A DNA stretch of 48,162 nucleotides from positions 1 through 48,162 of IMG/VR virus record IMGVR_UViG_3300032238_000527; one strand, written 5' to 3'. Position numbers and translations under genes: made by a program. This DNA is from a virus. The stretch's first letter is position 1; each line of letters begins with the position of its first letter. A model generated the notes under the pieces. It was not told the DNA's origin. It searched no databases and was given only the letters and a program-made list of their open reading frames with translations. Shown here piece after piece: positions 128-38,956 of this stretch.

Positions 128-201
128 TGGTGCCCCATGACAGAATCGAACTGCCATCCCCTGATTACAAAACAGGTGTTCTACCATTTAACTAATAGGG
201 C
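128..201 (-). tRNA. tRNA-Thr (UGU)
   Basis: The acceptor stem GCCCTAT/ATGGGGC pairs over seven positions, the T loop is TTCGATT and CCA is encoded. The anticodon loop TTTGTAA gives UGU; the base pair closing that loop is a T-T mismatch. Confidence 0.85.
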
Positions 202-272
202 AAATAAAACAGGATAGCATTTTTTGGCTTTTTTTCAAGAAAAGATTTTTAATGTTTGCTGTTGCTATCCTT
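202..272. repeat. tRNA spacer repeat, copy 2
   Basis: Spacer between tRNA-Val and tRNA-Thr. Its ends form a perfect 9-bp inverted repeat (AGGATAGCA/TGCTATCCT), and the internal ACAGCAAA and trailing TGTTTTATT blocks match the other two copies. Confidence 0.7.
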
Positions 273-276
273 AAAC

Positions 277-350
277 TGGTACCTCGTTACAGAATCGAAC
301 TGTCATCAACGGTATGTAACACCGCGGTTCTACCATTAAACTACCGAGGC
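277..350 (-). tRNA. tRNA-Val (UAC)
   Basis: The anticodon stem GCGGT/ACCGT encloses loop GTTACAT, giving UAC. The T arm carries TTCGATT and CCA is encoded. The acceptor stem has a wobble pair at its first position and a mismatch at its last. Confidence 0.82.
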
Positions 351-356
351 ATAACT

Positions 357-432
357 TGGTCTCCCTACCAGGATTCGAACCTGGACCACACGGCCCCAAA
401 CCGTGTACGCAACCTGATAACGCTTTAGAGAG
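357..432 (-). tRNA. tRNA-Pro (UGG)
   Basis: The anticodon stem CACGG/CCGTG encloses loop TTTGGGG (UGG). The acceptor CTCTCTA/TAGGGAG pairs fully with one G-U, the T arm contains GGTTCGAATCC, and CCA is encoded. Confidence 0.88.
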
Positions 433-590
433 AAAATAGGTTTTCGAGCGACTGACTATCTTTCTCAAGGACTCATCAGCTTGTCTCGTATAGGAGAGTT
501 TAAACTACCTTGTGCCGCTACTGGTGTGTCATGCTCAAGAAATAGGGCACTAGCACACAAGGGACTCATCCCTACGTCTATCTCGAAACT
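433..590 (-). other. Unassigned structured segment inside the tRNA array
   Basis: No tRNA or convincing ORF is seen in these 158 bases. On the minus strand two similar blocks occur: CGAGATAGACG followed by GGATGAGTCCC, and CGAGACAAG followed by CTGATGAGTCC. Between them is a hairpin-forming pair CCTTGTG/CACAAGG. The second block plus a downstream CTCGAAAA resembles hammerhead core pieces, but a paired stem II cannot be drawn. It could be a processing element or decayed tRNAs. Confidence 0.35.
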
Positions 591-665
591 TGGTGGAGGC
601 CGGGGAAATCGAATCCCTCTAGTCACGATGCTTGCAAGGCAACGCCGTAGCCCACTACTGCCCCC
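591..665 (-). tRNA. tRNA-Ala (UGC)
   Basis: The anticodon loop CTTGCAA gives UGC, the T arm contains GATTCGATTT and CCA is encoded. The acceptor GGGGGCA/GGCCTCC pairs except at the innermost position. Confidence 0.82.
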
Positions 666-672
666 AATTGTC

Positions 673-747
673 TGGTACCGCCATATGGAATCGAACCACA
701 ATCCCCACGTTCGTAGCGTAGTGTATTATCCATTATACTATAGCGAT
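673..747 (-). tRNA. tRNA-Arg (ACG)
   Basis: The anticodon stem CTACG/CGTGG encloses loop CTACGAA (ACG, normally read as ICG after deamination). The acceptor ATCGCTA/TGGCGGT pairs fully with G-U pairs, and CCA is encoded. Confidence 0.86.
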
Positions 748-752
748 AAATT

Positions 753-826
753 TGGCACCCGGACTAGGGATCGAACCTAGGCTAACAGAGTCAAAGTCTG
801 TTGTGCTACCATTACACAATCCGGGA
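753..826 (-). tRNA. tRNA-Gln (UUG)
   Basis: The anticodon stem ACAGA/TCTGT encloses loop CTTTGAC (UUG). The acceptor TCCCGGA/TCCGGGT pairs except for an open first position, a weak end typical of glutamine tRNAs. Discriminator G and CCA are encoded. Confidence 0.87.
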
Positions 827-833
827 ACAAAAT

Positions 834-912
834 TGGCTCCGTGTGTGAGGATCGAACTCACCTAATCACTGATTAACAGTCAGGTCCTTGCACCATGCTT
901 GGATTTCACGGA
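834..912 (-). tRNA. tRNA-Asn (GUU)
   Basis: The anticodon hairpin CTGA/TCAG has loop CTGTTAA (GUU). D stem TCC/GGA, T arm GTTCGATCC, discriminator G and encoded CCA agree with asparagine tRNA. Confidence 0.87.
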
Positions 913-922
913 ATAAATTAGT

Positions 923-976
923 GTTAGTTTCTATACCACCCATTGAAACTAACAAACGTTGAGTGTATTGCTACAC
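923..976. other. Two hairpins in the tRNA-Asp/Asn spacer
   Basis: The spacer holds a perfect 9-bp stem (923-931 with 945-953) with a 13-base loop, and a 5-bp stem (963-967 with 972-976) that on the minus strand closes a GCAA tetraloop. A GNRA loop in the transcribed orientation suggests folded RNA, possibly a processing signal. Confidence 0.55.
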
Positions 977-985
977 TATTTGCTC

Positions 986-1060
986 TGGCGCCGAGGACGG
1001 GAATCGAACCCGCCTGAGTCGGATAGACAATCCGTTGCCCTCCCAGAGAACTACCTCGGC
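986..1060 (-). tRNA. tRNA-Asp (GUC)
   Basis: The acceptor GCCGAGG/CCTCGGC is perfect, the anticodon loop TTGTCTA gives GUC, the T arm has GTTCGATTC, and discriminator G with CCA is encoded. Confidence 0.9.
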
Positions 1061-1064
1061 ATGT

Positions 1065-1140
1065 TGGTATCGCGTACGGGGATCGAACCCGTCTCTAGAG
1101 TTTGAAGGACTCTCGGCCTACCCAGAAGCACCAACGCGAT
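1065..1140 (-). tRNA. tRNA-Glu (UUC)
   Basis: The acceptor ATCGCGT/ACGCGAT is perfect. The anticodon stem AGAGT/ACTCT encloses CCTTCAA (UUC). The T arm has GGTTCGATCC and CCA is encoded. Confidence 0.9.
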
Positions 1141-1209
1141 ATAATAAAACAGGATACATTTTCTTTTTCACCAATTGAAAGTTGAATAAAGTTTGCTGTG
1201 AGTATCCTA
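1141..1209. repeat. tRNA spacer repeat, copy 3
   Basis: Spacer between tRNA-Ile and tRNA-Glu, with the same ends as copies 1 and 2. Its terminal stem is AGGATAC/GTATCCT, so the bases next to the shared AGGATA differ from copy 2 but still pair. Confidence 0.65.
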
Positions 1210-1213
1210 AACT

Positions 1214-1287
1214 TGGTCCTCTCGACAAGAATCGAACTTGTAATGGCCGGTTATCAGCCGACTGTTATACCATTTAACTACAAGAGG
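1214..1287 (-). tRNA. tRNA-Ile (GAU)
   Basis: The anticodon stem GTCGG/CCGGC encloses loop CTGATAA (GAU). The acceptor CCTCTTG/CGAGAGG pairs fully with one wobble, the T arm has GTTCGATTC, and CCA is encoded. Confidence 0.88.
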
Positions 1288-6898: not shown

Positions 6899-7663
6899 TC
6901 ACCAAATCTTCCATTCGTAGCCAATCTGTGGAGTGTACTCAAATTCTCTAGGTTGCCATTCTTCTGTTAAAAAATCCTCGTCTGCAACAAATTCTAATGC
7001 GCCACCGATTGGATTTTCAAAGTACCAAAAACAAGCAGAAGAAATGATGTGTCTACCTGGACCCATTTTAGTTTTCCAACCTTTTTCTTTTACATACATA
7101 CCGCTAGCAAATACATCGTATATATCTCTTGCTGATAAAGCCACATGATTGATGCCGGGTTCAAAGCCTTTTTTATGTTGTATAAAAATTGTATGGTGTG
7201 CGCCATTCACAGACGATCTCATGAACACGCCGGTATCAATAAATCTATCTGATACAATGAATCCTAAATTTAAATAAAATTGTTCTGTTTCTTTTAACTT
7301 GTTTGTGTAAAGTACTATGTGTGCAATGTCAACGGGATTTGGTTTGTCATATATAGGTGCTGGTTGATTGACACGCATTTTATAAACATAATTATTTGTA
7401 AGACTCCCAACGCTAACAGATGTTTTTTGTGTTTTTCTCAATGAGATTTTAAAACCGTTTGGATCAACTAGATCTTGTTCTTCACTTTCCTCATCCACTC
7501 CAAAAACAATTTCAATTGGACCATCTGGCTTAACCTGCAGACTTGAGCCACGTTGAGTCATCCACTTTCTGTCATGCTTAACTAGCCCGCAGTCAGTAAA
7601 AAACGTATTAGCTTGCTCAATATCAGCGGTTACGTAAACTATTGATTCTATTCCATTAATCAA
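6899..7663 (-). CDS. Two-domain VOC-fold extradiol dioxygenase-like protein
   Basis: A 254-residue protein with a shorter N-terminal VOC domain (about 1-80) and a C-terminal one (about 108-235). H115, H173 and E224 occupy the 2-His-1-Glu iron positions of type I ring-cleaving dioxygenases (AHIVLY, NHVALSA, GALEFVAD). These enzymes open catechol-type rings next to the hydroxyls. It is the last gene of an operon with a flavin hydroxylase and a solute-binding protein; its start overlaps the preceding gene by 8 bases. A glyoxalase-like role is the main alternative. Confidence 0.78.
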   Translation of the reverse strand: MINGIESIVYVTADIEQANTFFTDCGLVKHDRKWMTQRGSSLQVKPDGPIEIVFGVDEESEEQDLVDPNGFKISLRKTQKTSVSVGSLTNNYVYKMRVNQPAPIYDKPNPVDIAHIVLYTNKLKETEQFYLNLGFIVSDRFIDTGVFMRSSVNGAHHTIFIQHKKGFEPGINHVALSARDIYDVFASGMYVKEKGWKTKMGPGRHIISSACFWYFENPIGGALEFVADEDFLTEEWQPREFEYTPQIGYEWKIW

Positions 7664-8594
7664 TTTGAATCCCTACATCTTTAATAATTTTTGAATACCT
7701 AATATGATCATTAACAATGTGTTGTTTTAAAACTTCGGGAGAACCTCCAATTGACGTAAAAGCTAATAATTTTAGTCTGTTTGAAATTTCAGGCATCTTA
7801 AGTATTTCATTTAGTTCAATATTAAGTTTTTTTACAAGATCATCAGGCATACCTTTAGGACCAACAAACCCCATCCAACCGTAAATTTCAATTCCTGGAT
7901 ATCCTAATTCTGCTAGCGTAGGTACGTTAGGTTGATAGGGTGAACGTTTATTATCAGCAACTGCTAGAACTTTTAGCTTGCCTTGTTCAAGATGTTGTAG
8001 TACAGGAACTAATGAAGTATACATTACTGGTACTTGTCCATTAAGTAAATCAATAACTGCTGGAGCATTACCTCTGTAAGGTATGTGTGTTAGATTAATT
8101 CCAGTAGACTTATTAACTACTTCTCCTAGAATATGCATTGGGCTTCCAGCGCCAGGACTTGCATAACCAGTTAGTTTATTTGATTTAGATGCGGCAATAA
8201 AATCTTTAAAATTAATAACACCTGTATTGCTGTTAACAACAACAAACATACTCTGTCTTGACACTAGCATGATTGGTGTAAAGTCTGCTGGGTCGTATCT
8301 AGCGCCGCCTCTTAATAATAGAGGAGCCATAACCATAGTATTAGGTGTAAGCAATAGTGTAGTGCCATCGGGATTGGCTTGGGCAACATACTGATTTCCA
8401 ATAGTTCCGCTAGCACCTGTTCGATTTTCTACAATTACAGGAATGTTTAGTCTGTTAGTAAGTTGTTCTGCAAACATTCTAGCAAGAACATCAGTATCAC
8501 CTCCTGCCGGAAACGATACTACTACAGTAATAGACTTTTGTGCGTAAGCAAAACAACTAAATGCTGTGAGTAATATAAGAAGTAGTTTTTTCAT
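7656..8594 (-). CDS. Tripartite tricarboxylate transporter substrate-binding protein (Bug/TctC)
   Basis: A 312-residue periplasmic binding protein. Signal peptide at residues 1-18 ending FAYA-Q, then hallmark motifs VVSFPAGGDTDVLAR, VENRTGASGTIG and PGAGSPMHILGE of the Bug family, which bind carboxylates including aromatic acids. Bug proteins are especially numerous in Burkholderiales, which hints at the host lineage. No transporter membrane subunits are nearby, so it would need host partners. Its start overlaps the hydroxylase stop (ATGA). Confidence 0.92.
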   Translation of the reverse strand: MKKLLLILLTAFSCFAYAQKSITVVVSFPAGGDTDVLARMFAEQLTNRLNIPVIVENRTGASGTIGNQYVAQANPDGTTLLLTPNTMVMAPLLLRGGARYDPADFTPIMLVSRQSMFVVVNSNTGVINFKDFIAASKSNKLTGYASPGAGSPMHILGEVVNKSTGINLTHIPYRGNAPAVIDLLNGQVPVMYTSLVPVLQHLEQGKLKVLAVADNKRSPYQPNVPTLAELGYPGIEIYGWMGFVGPKGMPDDLVKKLNIELNEILKMPEISNRLKLLAFTSIGGSPEVLKQHIVNDHIRYSKIIKDVGIQID

Positions 8595-9658
8595 AGTGTA
8601 TTAAGGGTATTATAAAAATTGTTAATTTTAGATTGAGCAGTGGAGGGCATGTTTGCAATCATCTCTTTATAACTAGTATAGCTCTCAGTTGCTCCTGCAA
8701 CCCCCACTGCTCGAGATGTATCTTGTACATATTTGCACATTGGATATCTACGTTCTCCAAATGCGCTTAACTCTATATTAGCATCTAATAGTTCTCCGAG
8801 CAAGACGGCATCATGTACAGCCATAGAACCGCCTTGTCCGCTGAACGGAGTACTAGCATGGGCCGCATCGCCAATTAGTAGCACATTGTTTTTATTCCAA
8901 GGTGTAGGCATTATAACTTCTTCCGCAGGTGTAAAGTAAACATTTTGATTAAAAGTTAACTCGTCAAGCAAGGGCCTAGCAGGGCCCTCAAACTCTAGAA
9001 ACTTCTCATACATCACAGCTGACCAAATGTTACGTTCATATAAATGTTTTTCTGGAACATGCACAACACCCCATACATACAATTCATCGTCACTTATTGG
9101 CATAATTCCTAATCGTTTGCCTGCACTGAACATTGTAATTTTATCAACTAGATTTTTTGGGCGTTTGTGTGTACTGCGCCAAACTTCAAACTCTGAATAT
9201 ACTGGGGTAACTTCTGGCCAAAATAAATTTCTTACACTAGAGTTTATGCCGTCAGCACCAATTACTAAATCAAAATTATCAAAAGAATAAGAATCAATGG
9301 TTGTGTTTAGTTGTATTTCAACGCCAAGAATTTTTAATTCTTCTGCTAGTACACGATGCATAGCAGATCGTCTAATGCCTAAAATTCTAGGATACACTAC
9401 ATCGGTTATATGATTTCCAATATTGTCCATGTAGACATTTCGTCCATTTGGTATTAAGAATCCAGCTTGTTCAATTTTAGTTAGTAATCCTAATTTGTTG
9501 AAATTATCTAATCCGTTACTATAAACAAAGATACCAGAGCTAATAGGTTCAGAGGTAGATGATTTTTCTATTAAGGTAACAGACCACCCGCGTCTTGCTA
9601 ACACGATCGATGCTGTGCAACCCGCAATGCCTGCGCCTACTACAAGAACTTTCTTCAT
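8591..9658 (-). CDS. FAD-dependent class A monooxygenase
   Basis: A 355-residue flavoprotein of the p-hydroxybenzoate hydroxylase / UbiH / TetX group. It has the dinucleotide-binding GAGIAG near residue 8, the DG motif (VIGADGINSSVR) and the GD motif (LIGDAAHASTPFSGQGG) for the FAD ribityl chain. Such enzymes hydroxylate aromatic rings with NAD(P)H and O2. It heads an operon with the Bug protein and the extradiol dioxygenase, matching a hydroxylate-then-cleave order. Detoxification of an antibiotic or a quinone-type role cannot be excluded. Confidence 0.9.
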   Translation of the reverse strand: MKKVLVVGAGIAGCTASIVLARRGWSVTLIEKSSTSEPISSGIFVYSNGLDNFNKLGLLTKIEQAGFLIPNGRNVYMDNIGNHITDVVYPRILGIRRSAMHRVLAEELKILGVEIQLNTTIDSYSFDNFDLVIGADGINSSVRNLFWPEVTPVYSEFEVWRSTHKRPKNLVDKITMFSAGKRLGIMPISDDELYVWGVVHVPEKHLYERNIWSAVMYEKFLEFEGPARPLLDELTFNQNVYFTPAEEVIMPTPWNKNNVLLIGDAAHASTPFSGQGGSMAVHDAVLLGELLDANIELSAFGERRYPMCKYVQDTSRAVGVAGATESYTSYKEMIANMPSTAQSKINNFYNTLNTL

Positions 9659-9687: not shown

Positions 9688-9715
9688 TAAAAAAATAGCA
9701 CCCGAAGGTGCTATT
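9688..9715 (-). terminator. Terminator of the tmRNA transcript
   Basis: The minus-strand stem AATAGCACC/GGTGCTATT closes a TTCG loop and runs into a T tract, just after the tmRNA coding piece. Confidence 0.88.
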
Positions 9716-9716
9716 A

Positions 9717-9930
9717 GTTATTTGGGTGACAAGGCTAACTAGACCTCGCAAGTGCTGTTTCTTAGGCAGCTAGGGCAAACTCGATGTCGTTCTTTGCAGA
9801 AACGCCAACGGGAGCTTGCCAGTACTTGAATGTAGATGCTTTTGCATTTACTTGATTTGCTTGATTTACGGTCATCGCCTACCGTGTTGCCGTCTCTACT
9901 ATCTACCCCTGTCGAAACCATGGCAGGCCC
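9717..9930 (-). ncRNA. ssrA: Permuted tmRNA, coding piece
   Basis: The 5' end GGGCCTGCCATGGTTTCGACAG is the tmRNA start. Its first seven bases pair perfectly (one G-U) with CAGGTCC of the acceptor piece at 10086-10150, which lies upstream in the transcript. A hairpin ACGGT/ACCGT (pseudoknot 1 region) follows. A tag frame ending AKNDIEFALAA and TAA (9797-9762) matches the ALAA degradation tag. The resume codon could lie further upstream in the same open frame. The 3' end of this piece is estimated. Gene order acceptor-spacer-coding identifies the two-piece form known in alphaproteobacteria, some betaproteobacteria and cyanobacteria. Confidence 0.88.
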
Positions 9931-10073
9931 ATCATAAAGAAACTTATCTCTGATTTGATCGCATCAAGCACTTGGGTAGTAACATCTTCACTTTGTCCAA
10001 CGATTGGTTCAAATTCGTAGATACAAATTGTTTTTGTTACGCCTTCATGTTCCGCTGTGATATCAATCTTCAT
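9903..10073 (-). CDS. 56-aa ORF inside the tmRNA internal spacer
   Basis: An ATG ORF begins 13 bases after the CCA end of the acceptor piece with the ribosome site AAGGAAG, fills the internal spacer and ends 28 bases inside the coding piece (TAG at 9903-9905). The product (MKIDITAEHEGVTKTICIYE at its N-terminus) is acidic and reads like a real protein through residue about 45; the last residues are tmRNA sequence translated. tmRNA maturation would cut the message, so translation and tmRNA processing should compete. Function unknown. Confidence 0.6.
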   Translation of the reverse strand: MKIDITAEHEGVTKTICIYEFEPIVGQSEDVTTQVLDAIKSEISFFMMGLPWFRQG

Positions 10074-10085
10074 TAAACTTCCTTA

Positions 10086-10150
10086 TGGTGGACCTGGCGG
10101 GAGTCGAACCCGCGTCCAAGAGTCCTTCGCTTTGAAGGGATTACAACAAT
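10086..10150 (-). ncRNA. ssrA: Permuted tmRNA, acceptor piece
   Basis: The minus strand carries a perfect T arm (GCGGG-TTCGACT-CCCGC), the acceptor strand CAGGTCC, discriminator A and encoded CCA, the typical tmRNA 3' end. Upstream is a small hairpin CCTTC/GAAGG. The mature 5' end of this piece cannot be fixed; it begins just after the cold-shock gene stop codon, so the pre-tmRNA may be co-transcribed with that gene. Confidence 0.88.
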
Positions 10151-10154
10151 TCTT

Positions 10155-10358
10155 TTAGGCAGGCTGGATGTTACTAGCCTGTGCGCCTTTCATGCCTTGG
10201 GTTACTTCAAACTTTACACTCTGTCCTTCTTGTAGACTTTTGAAGCCACCTGAATTAATCTGTGAAAAGTGTGCAAATACATCTGCGCCACCATTGTCGG
10301 GAGTAATGAAACCAAAACCTTTGGTATCGTTAAACCACTTTACTTTTCCTGTTATCAT
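10155..10358 (-). CDS. Cold-shock domain protein
   Basis: A 67-residue CspA-type single-strand nucleic-acid chaperone. The RNA-binding motifs KGFGFI and DVFAHF are intact, and the length is that of a single cold-shock domain. It likely melts RNA structure during infection. A promoter-like pair upstream (10505-10533) would give a leader of about 140 bases, as in cspA mRNAs. The tmRNA acceptor piece follows within a few bases. Confidence 0.93.
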
Positions 10359-14856: not shown

Positions 14857-17007
14857 TTACTGTCTAACAGTTGTAGAGCATCCTGCTGGATTTGTACAAC
14901 TCTGTATTATAGTAAATGATTTGCCACCGCTTTGTTGGATGTCTAAACTAGCAGGACCTCCAGCATTGGTTAAATCTATATTGGCTTTATTTGCTGTGTT
15001 ACCGGATTGTGTTGCAAGCACACTATTGCCGTTACCAGTTAGTTTGTTTTCAAGATAATGATTTCCACCACCTTCTTGAACTGCGGTGATAGAGTTGTTG
15101 TTTCCAGTGACAGTATTGAACATTAGATTGTTGCCGTTGTCTTTTTGAGTTACGTTAATATTATTATTACTACCTGATATTATTTTTGTTTCTTGGTAGT
15201 TAGCGCCTGCGGTGTTTGTTTGGCTAGAGGTAACAGAGTTTGAACTTCCTTGCACTAGTGCATTTAAATAGTTTGTGCCGGTTTGAGTAACACCCACTGT
15301 ATGAGAACCAGTGCCACCTAATCCTATATTAGCAGTATTCTTTGCCCCAGATTGCGTAACATTAACTGTATTTTGGTCTCCGCTTATCTGCTCAATATAC
15401 AAATAATTGTTAACTGACTGTGTTGCGTTGTTCCATGTATTATAACGTGTTTGTTGCTCAGTTGTTGCACCGGCAGTGCTTGAACCACCACTAGTGATAG
15501 TTTCTGTTCCTGTACCATTTTGAAGATCAATAGTGCCGCCTTCAATAACAGGTCCTAATGATACAGAAGTTCCAGCTATATCAACTACTGCGCTGTTAGA
15601 ATAAGCTAATCCTGTAGCGTCAACCGTGTTTGTTTCTGTTATCCATCCTGTGGTAAATGCAGAGTTAGGTACGCCAGTTCTGCCTGCACCGTAATCCCAT
15701 TGAAACTTCATTCCGTACCCGCCTAGGTCATTCCAATACCATGCTTCAAGATTATAAGTTTGTCCAGCAACTACGTCTATCCAACCAGATGCTGTATAAC
15801 TAAAAATACTTTGCCATTGGTTAGTTGATTGGTCATTAATGATCGTTTGACTGTTTATTTTTAAAACAAATCCGTCATCACTATTGCTGTAAAAATATAA
15901 TCTATAAACAGTGCCTGCTGGATGTAAGTTAGTTATTGGTGCTGTGATAGTTCCGCTGTATGCTACTAATGTACCTTCTCCCATTCCCGGAAATGATCCG
16001 TTTGTTGGAACATAGATGCCGTTAGTAGTACGTCCACTGGCTACTTGATTATAAGCACCAGGCGACAAGTTAGGCACACGATAAGGTCCTAACCAGTTTT
16101 TGCCACATATTCCAAAAACACAAGTATAAGTGTAAGCATCAAAGTCGTAAACTTTATAGTTTAATCCTTGTAGTACGTTTTGTGTTGTAGTTGTAGTAGA
16201 ACCATTTGCTTCAATAGTAGTTACTCCGTTAGTTGTAACTTTGCTGATAGGAGTAGTTGTTGTAGTTAATACTCCATTTACAATCTTGTTAGTTACTACA
16301 TTAGAAGAAACTCGTGTTTGATATAGAGTTTCAGTTCCGTTGCTACTAGATGTTGTACCATCATTATAAGTTGTGATAGTCACAGGTGTTTGATAAACAG
16401 TAATTGTGTTACCACTTACTACATTTCGTGTTGTGTAAGTTACTGCTGTTCCTGTTACTGTTCTTACAGGTGCGGCAGGTGCTACAGTTTGTCCGGCAGA
16501 TAATGGGGTAGTTGAACCGTTTGTAGCATAGGTGTTAACTTGAGTTACTGTTGGATTCAATGTTCCAGTCCAAGTAACTCCGCTGGTATTAGTAAAGCCC
16601 TGAGTCATGCTGAACAACTGTCCAGTATTATTATCATTACCTACAAAGAAAAAATAGTCAGTACCCATGTTAATAATGTGTCCAGTACCCATAACTGCTT
16701 TTTGTGTGCCATTAGCACTATATTGAATAGCATTCCACGGATTAGTAGCATCTCCTGTTGCGACAAATGCTACATAGTCTCCAGCGGCCCAGGATAGTTG
16801 GCCGTTGTACCAAGGAATTTTATATGCTGTCCCGGGATTCTTACTGTAGATTTGGCAAGTTGCTGTTTGTGTACAGGATTGAACATTCCACTGACTATCA
16901 GCTATTTGTGCTTGTCCAAACTTTAAGTCAGCAAGCCCGGTGGCTTGACTGTATGCGCTAACACATATAGTTAATAAGAATAAAAACTGTAGGAAACGCT
17001 TTATCAT
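14857..17007 (-). CDS. Exported curlin-repeat protein with PA14-like domain
   Basis: 716 residues. A signal peptide (about 1-20, SAYSQ) is followed by a Thr/Ser-rich region, a PA14-like sugar- or surface-binding domain around residues 320-470 (YFYSNSDDGFVLKINSQ, then WYWNDLGGYGMKFQWDY) and about seven curlin-type repeats of the form GxxNxxxxxQxGxxN from about 535 to the end. CsgA-type repeats form amyloid. The start overlaps the FecR gene stop (ATGA). It looks like an amyloid-anchored adhesin exported through the CsgG pore. Confidence 0.78.
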   Translation of the reverse strand: MIKRFLQFLFLLTICVSAYSQATGLADLKFGQAQIADSQWNVQSCTQTATCQIYSKNPGTAYKIPWYNGQLSWAAGDYVAFVATGDATNPWNAIQYSANGTQKAVMGTGHIINMGTDYFFFVGNDNNTGQLFSMTQGFTNTSGVTWTGTLNPTVTQVNTYATNGSTTPLSAGQTVAPAAPVRTVTGTAVTYTTRNVVSGNTITVYQTPVTITTYNDGTTSSSNGTETLYQTRVSSNVVTNKIVNGVLTTTTTPISKVTTNGVTTIEANGSTTTTTQNVLQGLNYKVYDFDAYTYTCVFGICGKNWLGPYRVPNLSPGAYNQVASGRTTNGIYVPTNGSFPGMGEGTLVAYSGTITAPITNLHPAGTVYRLYFYSNSDDGFVLKINSQTIINDQSTNQWQSIFSYTASGWIDVVAGQTYNLEAWYWNDLGGYGMKFQWDYGAGRTGVPNSAFTTGWITETNTVDATGLAYSNSAVVDIAGTSVSLGPVIEGGTIDLQNGTGTETITSGGSSTAGATTEQQTRYNTWNNATQSVNNYLYIEQISGDQNTVNVTQSGAKNTANIGLGGTGSHTVGVTQTGTNYLNALVQGSSNSVTSSQTNTAGANYQETKIISGSNNNINVTQKDNGNNLMFNTVTGNNNSITAVQEGGGNHYLENKLTGNGNSVLATQSGNTANKANIDLTNAGGPASLDIQQSGGKSFTIIQSCTNPAGCSTTVRQ

Positions 17008-18116
17008 TTTTGTACAATAGTAATGATAGTGTTGCCGCCCTGATTAACACGGTTCTTAAACTCTAAACTACCTTGTGTTTGGTAAATTAAAGAGTTTTGT
17101 GTTAATGGAGTAGTTATACATTGTTGGTCGCTGCCGTTGTCTCTACATAAGCTGACAGACATTTCGTCTTTAACAGCAACAATGCCGCTTGATTTTTTGT
17201 AGTCAGGTAATACACTGTCTACTTCGCTTAAAAAGTTTTCGTTTAGTCCGTTTCCAATCATATCAAATATACTAGCAAGGAATTGATTATCTAAAAAGTT
17301 TTGTGCTAAACGGTCAACATACATATTAGCTAGTTGTGCTTCGAGTGCGTTCTCTAACCCTTTTTCTTTTAAGAAGTCAACATCTAAAAAACTTTTAGCG
17401 GCAGACCTTTCACTTCTACCTGTTTCTTTAATTTCTTTTGGAGGACTTAGTAGTAGCATATTGCCAATGGCATCTTCTGATAAGTTTAGTATTACTGGGC
17501 GAGTCGGAGGTTGGGCTCGACTATTAACCTGAGTGGCTTGGAAGGCCTGGTTAAGAATTACAATACCAGCATCTGTTTCAACTGATATTTCTCCAACTTT
17601 ACAATTCTTTTCTATATCGTCTTTGGTTCTACTTTTGTTACGATCATCGGGACAACTTGGAAGTAGTATAACTGTTGATTGTCCTAGTTCGTCAACTGAG
17701 GCAGTAAAATCAGTACCACGAACACTAATAGTAGCAGTAGGCGTATTAAGAGCAACATTTTGCGGGCTGTTCTTAGCAATTTGTCCACTTGCGTAGCGGA
17801 CAGTTCCAAGTGCAATTTTAGCACCTAGTTTACCCGATTTAGATTTAGGATCATATACGAAGTCATCAATTACCAACTTGCTATTTTCATTTACTTGAAC
17901 ACGAGTGTCGTCTTCAAAGGTTATTCCCACTTTCCCCTGTTGGGTTTTGATCGCATCGTTCATTTCCACTCCCGTGCCCTTGGACCCCGTTAGTGTCTGT
18001 TTGTCTCTCTGAATGCTGGGAGGAGTGTTGAGTTGTTCTGTTACTTTGCCTATCGCGGCGTGACTCGACGAGGTACCTAGCAACAGTAAGCATAGTATTG
18101 CTGTCCATATTTTCAT
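17004..18116 (-). CDS. Exported FecR-domain protein
   Basis: The start at 18116 gives a 370-residue protein with a signal peptide (MKIWTAILCLLLLGTSSSHA). A FecR domain spans about residues 30-150, with the characteristic TPTATISVRGTDF. FecR domains are periplasmic sensor or scaffold modules, often near CHASE2 cyclases and surface-polymer genes. Its start overlaps the 57-aa gene by ATGA. The C-terminal half is unassigned, helical and acidic. Confidence 0.85.
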   Translation of the reverse strand: MKIWTAILCLLLLGTSSSHAAIGKVTEQLNTPPSIQRDKQTLTGSKGTGVEMNDAIKTQQGKVGITFEDDTRVQVNENSKLVIDDFVYDPKSKSGKLGAKIALGTVRYASGQIAKNSPQNVALNTPTATISVRGTDFTASVDELGQSTVILLPSCPDDRNKSRTKDDIEKNCKVGEISVETDAGIVILNQAFQATQVNSRAQPPTRPVILNLSEDAIGNMLLLSPPKEIKETGRSERSAAKSFLDVDFLKEKGLENALEAQLANMYVDRLAQNFLDNQFLASIFDMIGNGLNENFLSEVDSVLPDYKKSSGIVAVKDEMSVSLCRDNGSDQQCITTPLTQNSLIYQTQGSLEFKNRVNQGGNTIITIVQK

Positions 18117-18286
18117 CTGTCCCCCCATTCAAACCAACTGTATTTCTGTAATTCTCTCATGATGGCATCACCAGTAGTGTTTTGCCATTTAGCCGCTTGT
18201 TCTACAAAAGAAGACCAGTCACGAACATAGTGTTCATTACCTTGCATCCATGCTTGGTACATCTTTTGTAGTTCGCTTTCAAACAT
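18113..18286 (-). CDS. Hypothetical protein (57 aa)
   Basis: A small soluble, aromatic-rich, probably helical protein without a signal peptide. It fills the gap between the curlin gene and the FecR gene, with the stop/start junction TAATATG on one side and an ATGA overlap on the other, so it is clearly part of the operon. Function unknown. Confidence 0.65.
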   Translation of the reverse strand: MFESELQKMYQAWMQGNEHYVRDWSSFVEQAAKWQNTTGDAIMRELQKYSWFEWGDR

Positions 18287-18287
18287 A

Positions 18288-19247
18288 TTAGTTTTTCTGT
18301 AATATTCTGTATGTGCTGTTACTGCCAGTTATTTTAATATTTGATACGTTATCAACACTACCTTGCTGTGTAATACCAACATCGTTACTTGAACCTGCAA
18401 TATCTAGTTTAGCATATTGTCCAATAGATAGTCCACCGCTTTGTACAATGTTAGTGATATTGTTTGATCCCACTGCTTTATAATCAACAACATTATCATT
18501 AACTCCACTTTGTGATATAGTAGTTTGATTACCTTGACCGTCTAGATCAATCTTAACATAATTACCGTTGGTGCTACCACCGCTCTGAGTTACGCTAGTA
18601 ATATTAGTTGCGCCTCTAGTATCAATATCTACATAGCCTTTGTTACCTGTTAGGTTAAGAGTAGTTAAATTGCCGCCGCCTAATGTTTGATTTACATTTG
18701 CAATTACATTATCTGCGTTAATTGTAGCGTCAATTGAGTTGCCACCACCACCACTCGATCTTACAACTAAACTATTTGTGTTACCTAACATATTCACATT
18801 GGTAATAGCATTACCGCCTAACTGTATAATATCAATTATATTACTGGCACTAACACCATTTCCGTTGTTATTACTGTTGATATATGCAATATTTCCGCCA
18901 ACATCAACTTTATAGTTTAACTCAATGCCTTTGCCAGTAGTCCCAACTGTTGTGTTAAGTCCTAGTGACAGTTTATTATTTGGGCCTGCTTGCTCAATAG
19001 TAACTGTTTGGACATCACCTTTAAGTTTAGCTGGATCTTGAGGATTGGTACTAGCCGTTCCGTTTGTCAGTATTCCATTAACTTTGTTGCCAGCGCCGTC
19101 CTGAGTCATAGTGATAGTGCTGTTATCGCCAGATTGGTCGATATAAATGCTATTATCAACACCCCAGCTTGTGGCTGAAATGCTTAGTAGCATTATAGTG
19201 AGTAATTTTCTCGACAACCCACCAACACCTGTCATTCTTTGTTCCAT
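18288..19247 (-). CDS. Curlin-repeat amyloid subunit (CsgA/CsgB-like)
   Basis: 319 residues: an N-terminal signal sequence (ending SATSWG-V), then curlin-type repeats over the whole mature part, for example NSTITMTQDGAGN and NQTTISQSGVNDN, with the alternating N-x-x-x-x-x-Q-x-G-x-x-N register that stacks into amyloid. It is longer than classical CsgA (about 150). It lies directly downstream of csgG and upstream of the FecR and curlin-PA14 genes. Confidence 0.85.
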   Translation of the reverse strand: MEQRMTGVGGLSRKLLTIMLLSISATSWGVDNSIYIDQSGDNSTITMTQDGAGNKVNGILTNGTASTNPQDPAKLKGDVQTVTIEQAGPNNKLSLGLNTTVGTTGKGIELNYKVDVGGNIAYINSNNNGNGVSASNIIDIIQLGGNAITNVNMLGNTNSLVVRSSGGGGNSIDATINADNVIANVNQTLGGGNLTTLNLTGNKGYVDIDTRGATNITSVTQSGGSTNGNYVKIDLDGQGNQTTISQSGVNDNVVDYKAVGSNNITNIVQSGGLSIGQYAKLDIAGSSNDVGITQQGSVDNVSNIKITGSNSTYRILQKN

Positions 19248-35309: not shown

Positions 35310-35540
35310 TTATCCCTTTAAATGTTCTCTGAGTTCTGTGAACCCGCCTATTAATTTATCGTCTAAAAATATCTGTGGCACTGTTCTTGCACCTGGAACT
35401 GCTTCTAACAGTTGTTCTTTGGACCAAACACCACTAGTGATATTGCGTTCTTCAAACTCAATGCCTTTGTGTTTTAACAATGCTTTGGCTTGATCGCAAT
35501 ATGGACAAGGTGTCTTACTCCAAACTACCGCTTTCGTCAT
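35310..35540 (-). CDS. Glutaredoxin
   Basis: 76 residues with the active site C12-PY-C15 and the TVPQIF cis-proline loop, plus GG for glutathione binding. It reduces ribonucleotide reductase, encoded immediately upstream; its start overlaps the nrdB stop by 4 bases (ATGA). Confidence 0.93.
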   Translation of the reverse strand: MTKAVVWSKTPCPYCDQAKALLKHKGIEFEERNITSGVWSKEQLLEAVPGARTVPQIFLDDKLIGGFTELREHLKG

Positions 35541-36634
35541 AATGTAAATCCTTTTAAGGTATCAGTATTTACATCTTGTTTGATACCACCGATAATATAT
35601 GACTCCACTTCTGTTTCTTGAGGTGCAACTTGTAGTCCAGAACTTGATAACCAATGTTGTGTCCATGGTAATGGGTTGGCATTAGCTGGTCGATCAAACA
35701 TTGGCTTGTAGCCTAATGCTTTCATTCTACGGTTAGCAATGTACTCAACATAGGCATGTAGTAGGTTATCATTTAAACCAATAATACTGCCGTCTTTGAA
35801 CAAGTATTGTGCCCAGGCTTTTTCTTCTTCGACTGCGGCACGCCACATAGCATATACATCTTCCTCGCATTCTTTGATAAGCTCAACCATTTCTGGATCG
35901 TCTTCTCCGCGCATCCAATTTTTAAGGATGTGTGTAGTTAATGCCAAGTGTTGGCTTTCATCACGAGCAATGAGACCAATAATCTTAGCACTACCTTCCA
36001 TAACTTTTAATTCGCCAAAGGCAAATGTACAAGCAAAGCTGACATAGAAACGTAGGCCTTCTAAAATGTTAACGTTCATCATAGACAAGAACAATTTCTT
36101 TTTAACTTCACGTAGGTCTGCTTTGCCTAGTGTGTACTTGTCAGCAAGTTCAACAAATTCATCGTAGTGTCGTGTGACTGATTTAGCACGTTCTACAATT
36201 TTATCATCGTCTAGAATGTGATCCAATACTTCGCTAGGATCGCTGTAAACGTTCTTGATAATGTGTGTATAACTGCGACTATGAATAGTTTCAAAGAATT
36301 GCCAAGTATTAATAGCACCTTCTAATTCTGGAATAGAGCAATGTGGTAAGAAAGCCATTCCAGGACCTCTACCTTGTACTGAGTCTAACAAGATTTGATA
36401 TTTCAAATTACTTGTAAAGATATGTTTTTGCTCAGGACGGAAATGTGCAAAGTCTGCACGATCCTTTTGTAAACTAACTTCTTCTGGACGCCAGAAGTAA
36501 CCTAGCATAGTTTGATTAAGTTTATCAAATTCGGGAAACTTGAAAACGTCATATCTCTGGCTGTTTAATGTTTCACCAAAAAACATATTCTGTTTGGTGA
36601 AGTCAACTTGGTCTCTGTTAAAAACTGTTTTCAT
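35537..36634 (-). CDS. nrdB: Ribonucleotide reductase beta subunit, class Ia
   Basis: 365 residues. The diiron/tyrosyl radical site is intact: Y122 in FFETIHSRSYTHII, E/H ligand segments in the helices and ARDESQHLALT. The tail ends in DTLKGFTL, which docks on NrdA. Together with NrdA it makes deoxyribonucleotides for phage DNA synthesis. Gap of 9 bases from nrdA. Confidence 0.96.
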   Translation of the reverse strand: MKTVFNRDQVDFTKQNMFFGETLNSQRYDVFKFPEFDKLNQTMLGYFWRPEEVSLQKDRADFAHFRPEQKHIFTSNLKYQILLDSVQGRGPGMAFLPHCSIPELEGAINTWQFFETIHSRSYTHIIKNVYSDPSEVLDHILDDDKIVERAKSVTRHYDEFVELADKYTLGKADLREVKKKLFLSMMNVNILEGLRFYVSFACTFAFGELKVMEGSAKIIGLIARDESQHLALTTHILKNWMRGEDDPEMVELIKECEEDVYAMWRAAVEEEKAWAQYLFKDGSIIGLNDNLLHAYVEYIANRRMKALGYKPMFDRPANANPLPWTQHWLSSSGLQVAPQETEVESYIIGGIKQDVNTDTLKGFTL

Positions 36635-36643
36635 GTTTAATCC

Positions 36644-38956
36644 TTAAATTGCACAGGCATCACAATCTGCTTCGGCGTTTGATGCGTCCATTGGTACTGC
36701 TTGTGGCAGTGGAGCACTTTCTTTAGCATCGTCATGTGAGTCGTCTGTTTTATAATCGTATGTGTTTTGGTAGTAAGAGGTCTTCCACCCAAACTTGTAA
36801 GTTGTTAGTAGGTCTTGAATCATCATACTCATTGGAACTTCGTTGTTAGGGAAGTGCAATGGATTATAAGACCAGTTGCCACTGATAGCTTGATCAAAGA
36901 ACTTCTGCATTGCGGCAACGATTTTTATATATCCTTCGTTGCTTGGCATGTCCCATAAAAGTGTATAGAAGTTCTTTAGTGTTGTATACTGCGGAACAAT
37001 TTGTTTTAATGGTCCCTTCTTTGATTTCTTAACACTTAGATAGCCACGTGGGGGTTCAATGCCGTTCGTAGCATTACCAACAACTGAACTAGACTCACTT
37101 GGCATCTGTGCCGATAGTGTGCTGTGACGTAGTCCATGACGGATAATGTCTTGACGTAGATTTTCCCAATCGTAGTGTAGTTCTGTATCTAAGAAAGCAT
37201 CTACATCTTTTTTGTATGTGTCGATTGGTAAAATACCGTCTGCATACTTTGTTCTTGAAAATCCTTCGCAGGCACCGCGATCTTTAGCTAAATCATTTGA
37301 TGCCTTTAGCAAGTAGTATTGAAATGCTTCGCTAAGATCGTGTACTAACTTCCATGCTTGCGGATCCTCATACTTGACCTTGTGTTTAGCAACATAGTGT
37401 GCAAGTCCAATATAACCAATGCCTAGACTGCGCCTTGCCTTTGTTGATTTTTCTGCGGCTAGGATAGGATATCGTTGATAATCAATTAACTCTTCTAGGC
37501 CTCGAACTGCAAGATCACATAACTCTTCTAGTTCACTTAGGTCTTTAATAATTCCTACGTTAACAGCACTAAGAATACACAACGCAATTTCTGCTTCGTT
37601 ATCATCAATGTGATCTAATGGCTTAGTTGGTAATGTAATCTCTTGGCATAAGTTACTCATAAAGATTAAATCTTTAAATGAACTATGTGTATTACAATGG
37701 TCGATGTTCATGATATAGATACGACCAGTTTCTGCACGTTCTTTAATCAAAGCACTGAACAAGTCTAGTGCCTTGACTGTTTTTTTCTTAATACTAGTAG
37801 CACGTTCGTACTTGGTATATAACTCTTCAAACTTAGCTTGATCACCAGCGAACGCTTCGTATAGTCCTGGAACATCATGCGGGCTGAACAGGGTAATGTT
37901 GCCGCCTTCAAGTAGACGTTGATACATTAGCTTGTTAATTTGAATTGAATAATCTAGTTTACGAACACGGTTGTCTTCAGTTCCCTTGTTGTTTTTTAAT
38001 ACAAGGATGTCTTCCATTTCGTAATGCCATAACGGGAAATGCACAGTAGCTGAACCGCCACGCACACCATTTTGTGTACAACAACGAACAGTAGCTTCAA
38101 ACTTTTTCAAGAATGGAACTACACCCGTGTGGGCAACTTCTCCGCCTCTAATTTTGCTATTAATTGCACGAATACGCCCAGCATTAATGCCGATACCAGC
38201 ACGTTGAGCAGTATACCGCCCGATAGCCATGTCGCTGGCAAAAATGCTATTGAGAGTATCATCGCTATCAACCAAAACGCAACTAGCAAATTGACGAACA
38301 GGAGTGCGTACACCAGCCATGATAGGAGTAGGAATATTAATTTTATGGGTACTAATAGCATCATAATATTTCTTCACGTAAGTTAAACGATGAGTTGGAG
38401 AATAGTTATGAAACATAGTAGCCGCAATCATCATGTACATAAACTGCGGAGTCTCAAACAACTCGCCACTGCTTCTATCTTGAACTAGGTACTTGTCAAC
38501 TACTTGTCTTAGGCCAGCATAGGTAAACTCGCAATCACGATCGTGCTTGATCCACGAGTCTAGTTTTTCAATTTCTTGTGGAGTATAATATTTGGTAAAT
38601 TCAGCATCATATACACCACGTGTAATATTCTTTTCTAAAATTTCTGATAATGACGGAGCTTCGTATCTTCCGTAGACTTCTTTGTATACACCGTACAACA
38701 ACAATCTTGCGGCGGAATATTGATAGTTTGGATTATCTAAACTGATTAGATCACTTGCGCTTCTTACAATAATTTCTTGTATCTGCTTTGTTGTCATGCC
38801 GTCGTGAAATTGTAAATTGGCATTCATTTCTATTTGGCTTGCTGAAACACCACTTAGTCCTTCACAAGCGAACTCAACTACTTTGTGGATTTTATCTACG
38901 TTTAATGGCTCCTTGCGTCCATCTCTTTTGATTATCTGAATATTAGTGCGTGACAT
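36644..38956 (-). CDS. nrdA: Ribonucleotide reductase alpha subunit, class Ia
   Basis: 770 residues. An ATP-cone (IIKRDGRKEPLNVDKIHKVV) at the N-terminus provides allosteric control; C226, the thiyl-radical region around NLCQEITLPT, and the C-terminal C765/C768 pair (DCDACAI) for reduction are all present. Heads the nrdA-nrdB-grx operon. Promoter at 39134-39162 with a structured 170-base leader. Confidence 0.96.
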   Translation of the reverse strand: MSRTNIQIIKRDGRKEPLNVDKIHKVVEFACEGLSGVSASQIEMNANLQFHDGMTTKQIQEIIVRSASDLISLDNPNYQYSAARLLLYGVYKEVYGRYEAPSLSEILEKNITRGVYDAEFTKYYTPQEIEKLDSWIKHDRDCEFTYAGLRQVVDKYLVQDRSSGELFETPQFMYMMIAATMFHNYSPTHRLTYVKKYYDAISTHKINIPTPIMAGVRTPVRQFASCVLVDSDDTLNSIFASDMAIGRYTAQRAGIGINAGRIRAINSKIRGGEVAHTGVVPFLKKFEATVRCCTQNGVRGGSATVHFPLWHYEMEDILVLKNNKGTEDNRVRKLDYSIQINKLMYQRLLEGGNITLFSPHDVPGLYEAFAGDQAKFEELYTKYERATSIKKKTVKALDLFSALIKERAETGRIYIMNIDHCNTHSSFKDLIFMSNLCQEITLPTKPLDHIDDNEAEIALCILSAVNVGIIKDLSELEELCDLAVRGLEELIDYQRYPILAAEKSTKARRSLGIGYIGLAHYVAKHKVKYEDPQAWKLVHDLSEAFQYYLLKASNDLAKDRGACEGFSRTKYADGILPIDTYKKDVDAFLDTELHYDWENLRQDIIRHGLRHSTLSAQMPSESSSVVGNATNGIEPPRGYLSVKKSKKGPLKQIVPQYTTLKNFYTLLWDMPSNEGYIKIVAAMQKFFDQAISGNWSYNPLHFPNNEVPMSMMIQDLLTTYKFGWKTSYYQNTYDYKTDDSHDDAKESAPLPQAVPMDASNAEADCDACAI

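Follow-up and report, generated by a model that had tools for sequence, protein, structure and literature searches.

The 48,162-nucleotide stretch of viral DNA analysed here (IMG/VR record IMGVR_UViG_3300032238_000527, positions 1 to 48,162; hereafter the window) very probably carries, on its minus strand, a phage permuted tmRNA gene whose intervening sequence (IVS) doubles as an interchangeable cassette for protein genes. This would be a new gene architecture, in which interchangeable protein genes are nested in an essential-type non-coding RNA gene, the processing helix of the RNA overlaps a ribosome-binding site, and two kinds of genes are linked in one transcript. The permutation would create a neutral slot that can be filled by mobile genomes, and this slot would yield small phage proteins that have escaped annotation, the cultured phage Melnitz being one case, and would allow competition between translation and RNase P processing to be put to the test.

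The tmRNA gene of the window is matched over the full length of the Rfam covariance model RF04321 (model positions 1-213; minus strand, 10148-9762; 129.7 bits against a gathering score of 47) and by the beta_tmRNA model RF01850 (10190-9692, minus strand; 112.7 bits), and ARAGORN calls a permuted tmRNA at 10178-9671 (minus strand). An earlier note on this DNA had read the locus as a phage-borne permuted tmRNA with its acceptor end upstream of its 5' end, and had named a search with tmRNA models as the check; the RF04321 match and the permuted call of ARAGORN bear out both the reading and the orientation. The 3' (acceptor) piece (10086-10148, minus strand; RF04321 alignment and sequence) lies upstream and comprises the T arm, the CAGGUCC acceptor strand and the CCA, which ends at 10086. 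It is followed by an IVS of 155 nt (9931-10085, minus strand), which spans from the CCA to GGGCCTG, and by the downstream 5' (coding) piece, which begins GGGCCUGCCAUGGUUUCGAC and occupies 9716-9930 (minus strand; RF04321 and ARAGORN), its 3' boundary being approximate. The acceptor stem, read from the sequence, is complete, as the note had stated: GGGCCUG (9930-9924) pairs at seven of seven positions with the CAGGUCC that precedes CCA, including a G.U at the third position (G3.U70), which we take to be the alanine identity pair. The tag reading frame called by ARAGORN (9762-9845, minus strand) encodes AKASTFKYWQAPVGVSAKNDIEFALAA and its stop, with a terminal ALAA as hydrophobic degradation signal; the eleven residues previously proposed are the last ones of this tag, whose full length is 27 aa. 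The terminator reported after the tmRNA was recovered by a terminator search of the region as a hairpin followed by a T run (9694-9715, minus strand), one of three terminator-like sites on both strands compared to 0.7 (sd 0.8) in shuffled sequences. The precursor folds with the acceptor stem and the helix that closes the IVS stacked on each other (z -2.23). Judged on these sequence features, the gene is probably a functional, permuted and phage-borne tmRNA. The earlier description had the order of the two pieces right and overlooked the most unusual feature of the locus, its protein-coding IVS: the 155-nt spacer with its ORF (10073-9903) went unmentioned.

Directly upstream of the tmRNA lies an ORF for a cold-shock protein (csp) of 67 aa (10155-10358, minus strand; phrog_729, 1.6e-22), which is probably located on the same transcript; a csp motif was found upstream in 35 of the 115 distinct IVS contexts having enough flanking sequence. 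At two related loci (L037 and L205) a small hydrophobic ORF is present between the csp stop codon and the acceptor piece, and is absent from two others (L049 and L147). A search of 20 viral records yielded no SmpB, so the re-tagging by the phage tmRNA that the earlier note proposed would need the SmpB of the host. Elsewhere, the window contains a cluster of eight tRNA genes (128-1287, minus strand; ARAGORN), host-like genes (6899-9658 and 35537-38956) for a TctC receptor, a FAD-binding oxidoreductase, a glyoxalase fold protein and both ribonucleotide reductase subunits, and a FecR domain protein adjoining a curlin-repeat protein (17004-19247). The TctC receptor presumably hints at a Burkholderiales host.

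The IVS of the window opens with TAAGGAAGTTTAATG, a Shine-Dalgarno (SD) sequence directly after the CCA, followed by a short gap and an ATG, from which the frame remains open for 56 codons across the IVS and into the tmRNA 5' piece, where it ends at a TAG stop (ORF P0001, 56 aa; 9903-10073, minus strand; relatives L002-L004). The two ends of the IVS form a closing helix in the predicted fold: its 5' strand UAAGGAAGUUU (10075-10085, minus strand), which includes the SD AAGGAAG, pairs at 11 of 11 positions with the 3' strand AAGUUUCUUUA (9935-9945, minus strand), following a rule by which IVS position i pairs with position -(4+i). For 43 distinct pairs of cargo IVS ends an average of 9.42 of 10 positions were paired in this register, compared to 6.63 in the next best one, and the ends of cargo IVSs formed 441 pairs versus 376.9 (sd 5.5; no more than 399 in any of 2000 shuffles) after the ends had been swapped. 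The register is also kept by 49 distinct non-cargo IVSs (10.45 of 11 positions paired) and the helix by 61 alpha-type IVSs (9.84 of 11); being common to all these groups, the closing helix belongs to the tmRNA gene and not to the cargo. The SD sits in the 5' strand of the helix in most beta-type cargo IVSs, and AAGG is already found in that strand in some bacterial IVSs that have no cargo ORF (L367, L369 and L370).

The beta-type set was obtained by searching viral contigs, many of them fragmentary, with the window ORF and with T-arm patterns. Among the matches listed, 124 distinct beta-type IVSs had both tmRNA pieces in view (15 T-arm matches without a visible 5' piece were excluded from this number), and 64 of them contained cargo ORFs; a pattern scan made without selection on the IVS yielded cargo in 36 of 90 distinct IVSs among the matches listed. 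Cargo was called with an SD rule; four IVS ORFs lacking a clear SD were decided individually, L053 being dropped and L025, L059 and L128 being kept. Two ORFs of 37 aa (L090 and L112) stand outside this rule in the family and dN/dS tests and are included in the cargo/non-cargo listing of the unselected scan, as are short GTG or ATG frames in 79-nt IVSs (L091, L114 and L119), which are not trusted. Cargo is absent from about half of the phage IVSs; five of those without it (L031, L032, L035, L051 and L052) consist of repeats of TAAATTTACTTTGGTATTCC. The 67 cargo ORFs among the matches listed fall into 36 families, or 39 when the tails coded by the tmRNA are trimmed. Cargo-bearing IVSs are much alike at their ends, in the first bases past the CCA and the last bases before the 5' piece, and dissimilar in their middles. 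Of the 64 cargo IVSs, 32 have their stop at a UGA separated by one base from the 5' piece, in 12 it lies 7-14 bases ahead of that piece, 17 read into the 5' piece, and three hold two ORFs. Among the matches listed in the unselected scan, 21 of the 22 distinct IVSs of at least 120 nt were open from an ATG or GTG near the CCA to the end of the IVS, or contained two ORFs.

Several lines of evidence show that the cargo class is coding. Open cargo frames exceeded a dinucleotide null model (chi2 259.8 over 32 families, 32 tests; P 8e-25, computed with 66 degrees of freedom where 64 are proper), although these P values are somewhat optimistic, as each ORF was given the longest frame among a few candidate starts and families were admitted with open cases only; the shortest cargo ORFs (22-26 aa), taken one by one, could have arisen by chance (P 0.14-0.22). 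The dN/dS ratio was 0.31 (L058 family), 0.32, 0.39, 0.24, 0.13, 0.17 and 0.23 in seven cargo families, a further family having too few differences for this analysis. One cargo protein (L012) is a clear thioredoxin (Pfam PF00085, 4e-21) that also matches solved thioredoxins; its relatives L402-L407 (87-89% identical) are free-standing genes, and another (L408, 82%) is located in the IVS of a divergent permuted tmRNA. Thioredoxin as a cargo suggests that the slot takes up ordinary phage accessory genes, which would ride on a well-transcribed locus. Two other cargo proteins resemble DUF6171 (L149) and DUF6552 (L025), both under the curated cut-off of Pfam; Pfam gave no match at E <=0.01 for 15 of the 20 cargo proteins scanned, no endonuclease domain was recognised in these 20, and most cargo families lack a recognised domain. 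The L209 cargo and the second ORF of L026, which by eye looked acetyltransferase-like, had no such Pfam match, and L209 had none in PDB.

Cargo is exchanged between loci. The clearest case is a pair from different metagenomes (L074 and L088) whose flanks match at 100% identity for 2.4 kb on the upstream and 2.5 kb on the downstream side and whose IVS ORFs are unrelated, the sole other difference in the aligned core being one base beside the T arm; similar swaps with less identical flanks were found for L037/L049 and L147/L205. Cargo ORFs also occur in different combinations in the IVSs, one two-ORF IVS (L204) containing ORFs A and B, a second (L026) A and another ORF, and L087 containing B alone.

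The alpha-type tmRNA lineage also carries cargo. A scan with alpha-type T-arm patterns gave at least 120 loci, corresponding to 89 distinct IVSs among the matches listed, of which by rule 19 have cargo, 42 have none and 28 are shorter than 40 nt; four of the 19 have GTG starts that are not trusted (L501, L514, L532 and L576), and the rule missed L516, L591 and L488, whose 5' pieces differ. Good cargo is found in L547/L587 (62 aa), L541/L552 (41 aa), L534 (77 aa), L507/L551 (63 aa), and L558 with L571, L579 and L590 (54 aa). Melnitz has an annotated gene just upstream of ssrA, gp85, whose product shares 73% identity with the L547 cargo. Homologous cargo is shared across the two types, the alpha-type L488 and beta-type L217 proteins being 55% identical over 40 aa (blastp 8e-15), in an alignment that lies partly over the 5' piece. 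A 199-codon ORF after an alpha-type T arm and CCA (L503), HNH-endonuclease-like by eye, was rejected as cargo, no real 5' piece or closing helix being seen there.

The 142-nt IVS of Melnitz itself contains a 54-codon ORF, not annotated in MZ577097.1, that runs into the 5' piece. Its 18 relatives are all located after a Melnitz-like acceptor piece and CCA. The family has a dN/dS of 0.27 (11 distinct sequences including Melnitz), with 295, 269 and 624 differences at the three codon positions, and one group carries an in-frame insertion of eight codons; L616 is shorter, with its stop 54 bases before the IVS end, and L617-L620 end 7 bases before it.

Bacterial permuted tmRNAs served as control. 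At E 1e-8, RF04321 matched 149 of 398 Pseudomonadota genomes and 19 of 399 Burkholderiales genomes, a minority of the bacterial matches being weakly scoring one-piece genes. We examined 62 loci, including four phage loci and ten fetched mostly for their long spans; 51 could be parsed (47 bacterial and four phage), and the 11 others, five of which were called or scored as one-piece tmRNA, were dropped. An ATG ORF with SD spanning the IVS was found in none of the 47 parsed bacterial permuted tmRNAs (IVSs of 5-126 nt), a sample of best matches that leaves room for rare bacterial cargo. Five of them have a non-ATG, SD-preceded start in an IVS of 25-32 nt, running into the 5' piece, and these are treated as chance. 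The fair bacterial control is formed by the RF04321 genome searches and the 47 parsed loci; an SD-specific pattern found nothing in genome contigs, a result of little weight, as the 105 stretches matched there by the wider pattern included no permuted gene. Among other phages, XacN1 (L385), PA_L9 (L386), QDWS595 (L387) and X1 (L388) have permuted tmRNAs that are not annotated as such, with IVSs (74-126 nt) in which the test applied to the bacterial loci found no ORF, and the permuted tmRNA of RcRudolph (L600) is covered by an annotated CDS, gp61.

Permuted tmRNAs are matured by RNase P and tRNA 3'-end enzymes. For the phage loci we infer a single precursor, probably transcribed together with csp, that would contain, in this order, the acceptor piece, the 5' helix strand with the SD, the small ORF, the 3' helix strand, the coding piece and the terminator. 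The closing helix would extend the acceptor stem, bringing the two tmRNA halves together irrespective of the cargo; cleavage of this precursor by RNase P and the tRNA 3'-processing enzymes would give a two-piece tmRNA working with host SmpB, the cargo ORF would be translated from the precursor or from the excised IVS, and recombination between the constant flanks would swap the cargo. A ribosome on the cargo and RNase P may compete for one transcript: since the stop codon lies beside or inside the region that is cleaved, a ribosome terminating there should cover that region, which makes such competition plausible. It would matter most where the ORF ends inside the 5' piece, as in the 17 read-through cases, the window included, because cleavage would then leave a nonstop mRNA. 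That the tmRNA gene acts as an exchangeable cargo-expression platform, on which a given transcript undergoes either tRNA-type processing or translation of the cargo, is a tentative extension that we consider possible and rather doubtful. If true, the supply of free ribosomes or of RNase P would decide between rescue RNA and cargo protein, and cleavage in the read-through class would release a tmRNA and also leave the cargo mRNA as a nonstop substrate for that same tmRNA.

It is unlikely that the IVS ORF is a regulatory leader, whose translation controls tmRNA maturation and whose peptide is itself irrelevant. Such a role would agree with the SD lying within the closing helix of most beta-type cargo IVSs, with the weaker helices of cargo IVSs (median -5.3 versus -8.8 kcal/mol in non-cargo IVSs; 39 versus 48 distinct; Mann-Whitney 7e-11) and with stop codons that adjoin or fall inside the RNase P site region, but the protein sequences are conserved, including an intact thioredoxin, and in several alpha-type cases (L507, L543) the SD lies beyond the helix, so that its sequestration is not general.

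For the window alone, we give a low probability to the reading that the tmRNA is real and its IVS ORF a decaying or non-coding member of the slot. The window ORF has few relatives, and its family has a dN/dS of 0.79, based on three sequences with 21 pairwise differences (5 synonymous and 16 nonsynonymous), the stop is reached only inside the 5' piece, and the chance of an open frame is 3% (family figure); P0001 has no Pfam or PHROG match, and none in 50,697 phage records. The coding evidence for this ORF is thus weaker than that for the cargo class. Against decay, SD, ATG and frame are intact in the window, L002 and L004 (88-95% identical), and selection acts on other families whose ORF extends into the 5' piece, such as the L058 and Melnitz families. 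A further candidate member, L015, had been joined to the window family via an unlikely TTG ORF and tmRNA-coded residues, and was separated on regrouping. L002 and L003 have identical IVS cargo and different tags (31 aa versus 13 aa, the former being the greatest length among the phage tags here), which suggests that recombination involves tag modules as well.

An ordinary phage permuted tmRNA with a non-coding spacer, in which ORFs arise by chance in AT-rich sequence, would suit the bacterial IVSs, the phage IVSs without ORF and the weak window ORF, but it is highly improbable given the thioredoxin domain, the purifying selection and eight-codon in-frame indel of the Melnitz family, the open frames and dN/dS of the cargo class, its free-standing homologues and the open long IVSs among the matches listed, on which chance ORFs were rejected for this class.

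Our preferred reading, the cassette within a permuted tmRNA gene, can be compared with known systems. The phage permuted tmRNA, which the earlier note did not count among the known phage genes, is by itself already published: the available text of PMC9004378 describes the two-piece tmRNA of the OM43 phage Melnitz and counts 53 two-piece tmRNAs among 133 unique ones from 402 phages. The protein-gene slot in the IVS seems undescribed so far. The Melnitz IVS ORF is not mentioned in the available text of PMC9004378, and IVS-encoded proteins are not reported in the literature covered on permuted or two-piece tmRNA in phages, IVS ORFs and small proteins (including the available parts of PMC9004378, PMC11915505 and PMC4131195), a coverage outside which most subscription papers and bioRxiv preprints fall. 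The window resembles the known permuted tmRNAs (RF04321, RF01850 and RF01849) in piece order, acceptor stem, T arm, CCA, tag and IVS, and differs from them in that its IVS carries a protein gene; the accessible part of PMC11915505, which also deals with the roles of RNase P and of tRNA 3'-end enzymes in processing, has as IVS oddities a single tRNA-Ala and a single repetitive element. Melnitz ssrA (MZ577097.1) is likewise a phage permuted tmRNA with an IVS ORF, and is unlike the window in its alpha-type lineage, its cargo and its tag. A protein gene inside a tmRNA gene is also known from group I introns with homing endonuclease ORFs (PMC11915505, same part); there the ORF is located in a self-splicing intron of the T-loop, whereas in the class represented by the window the ORFs occupy the IVSs of permuted genes and encode a diverse cargo.
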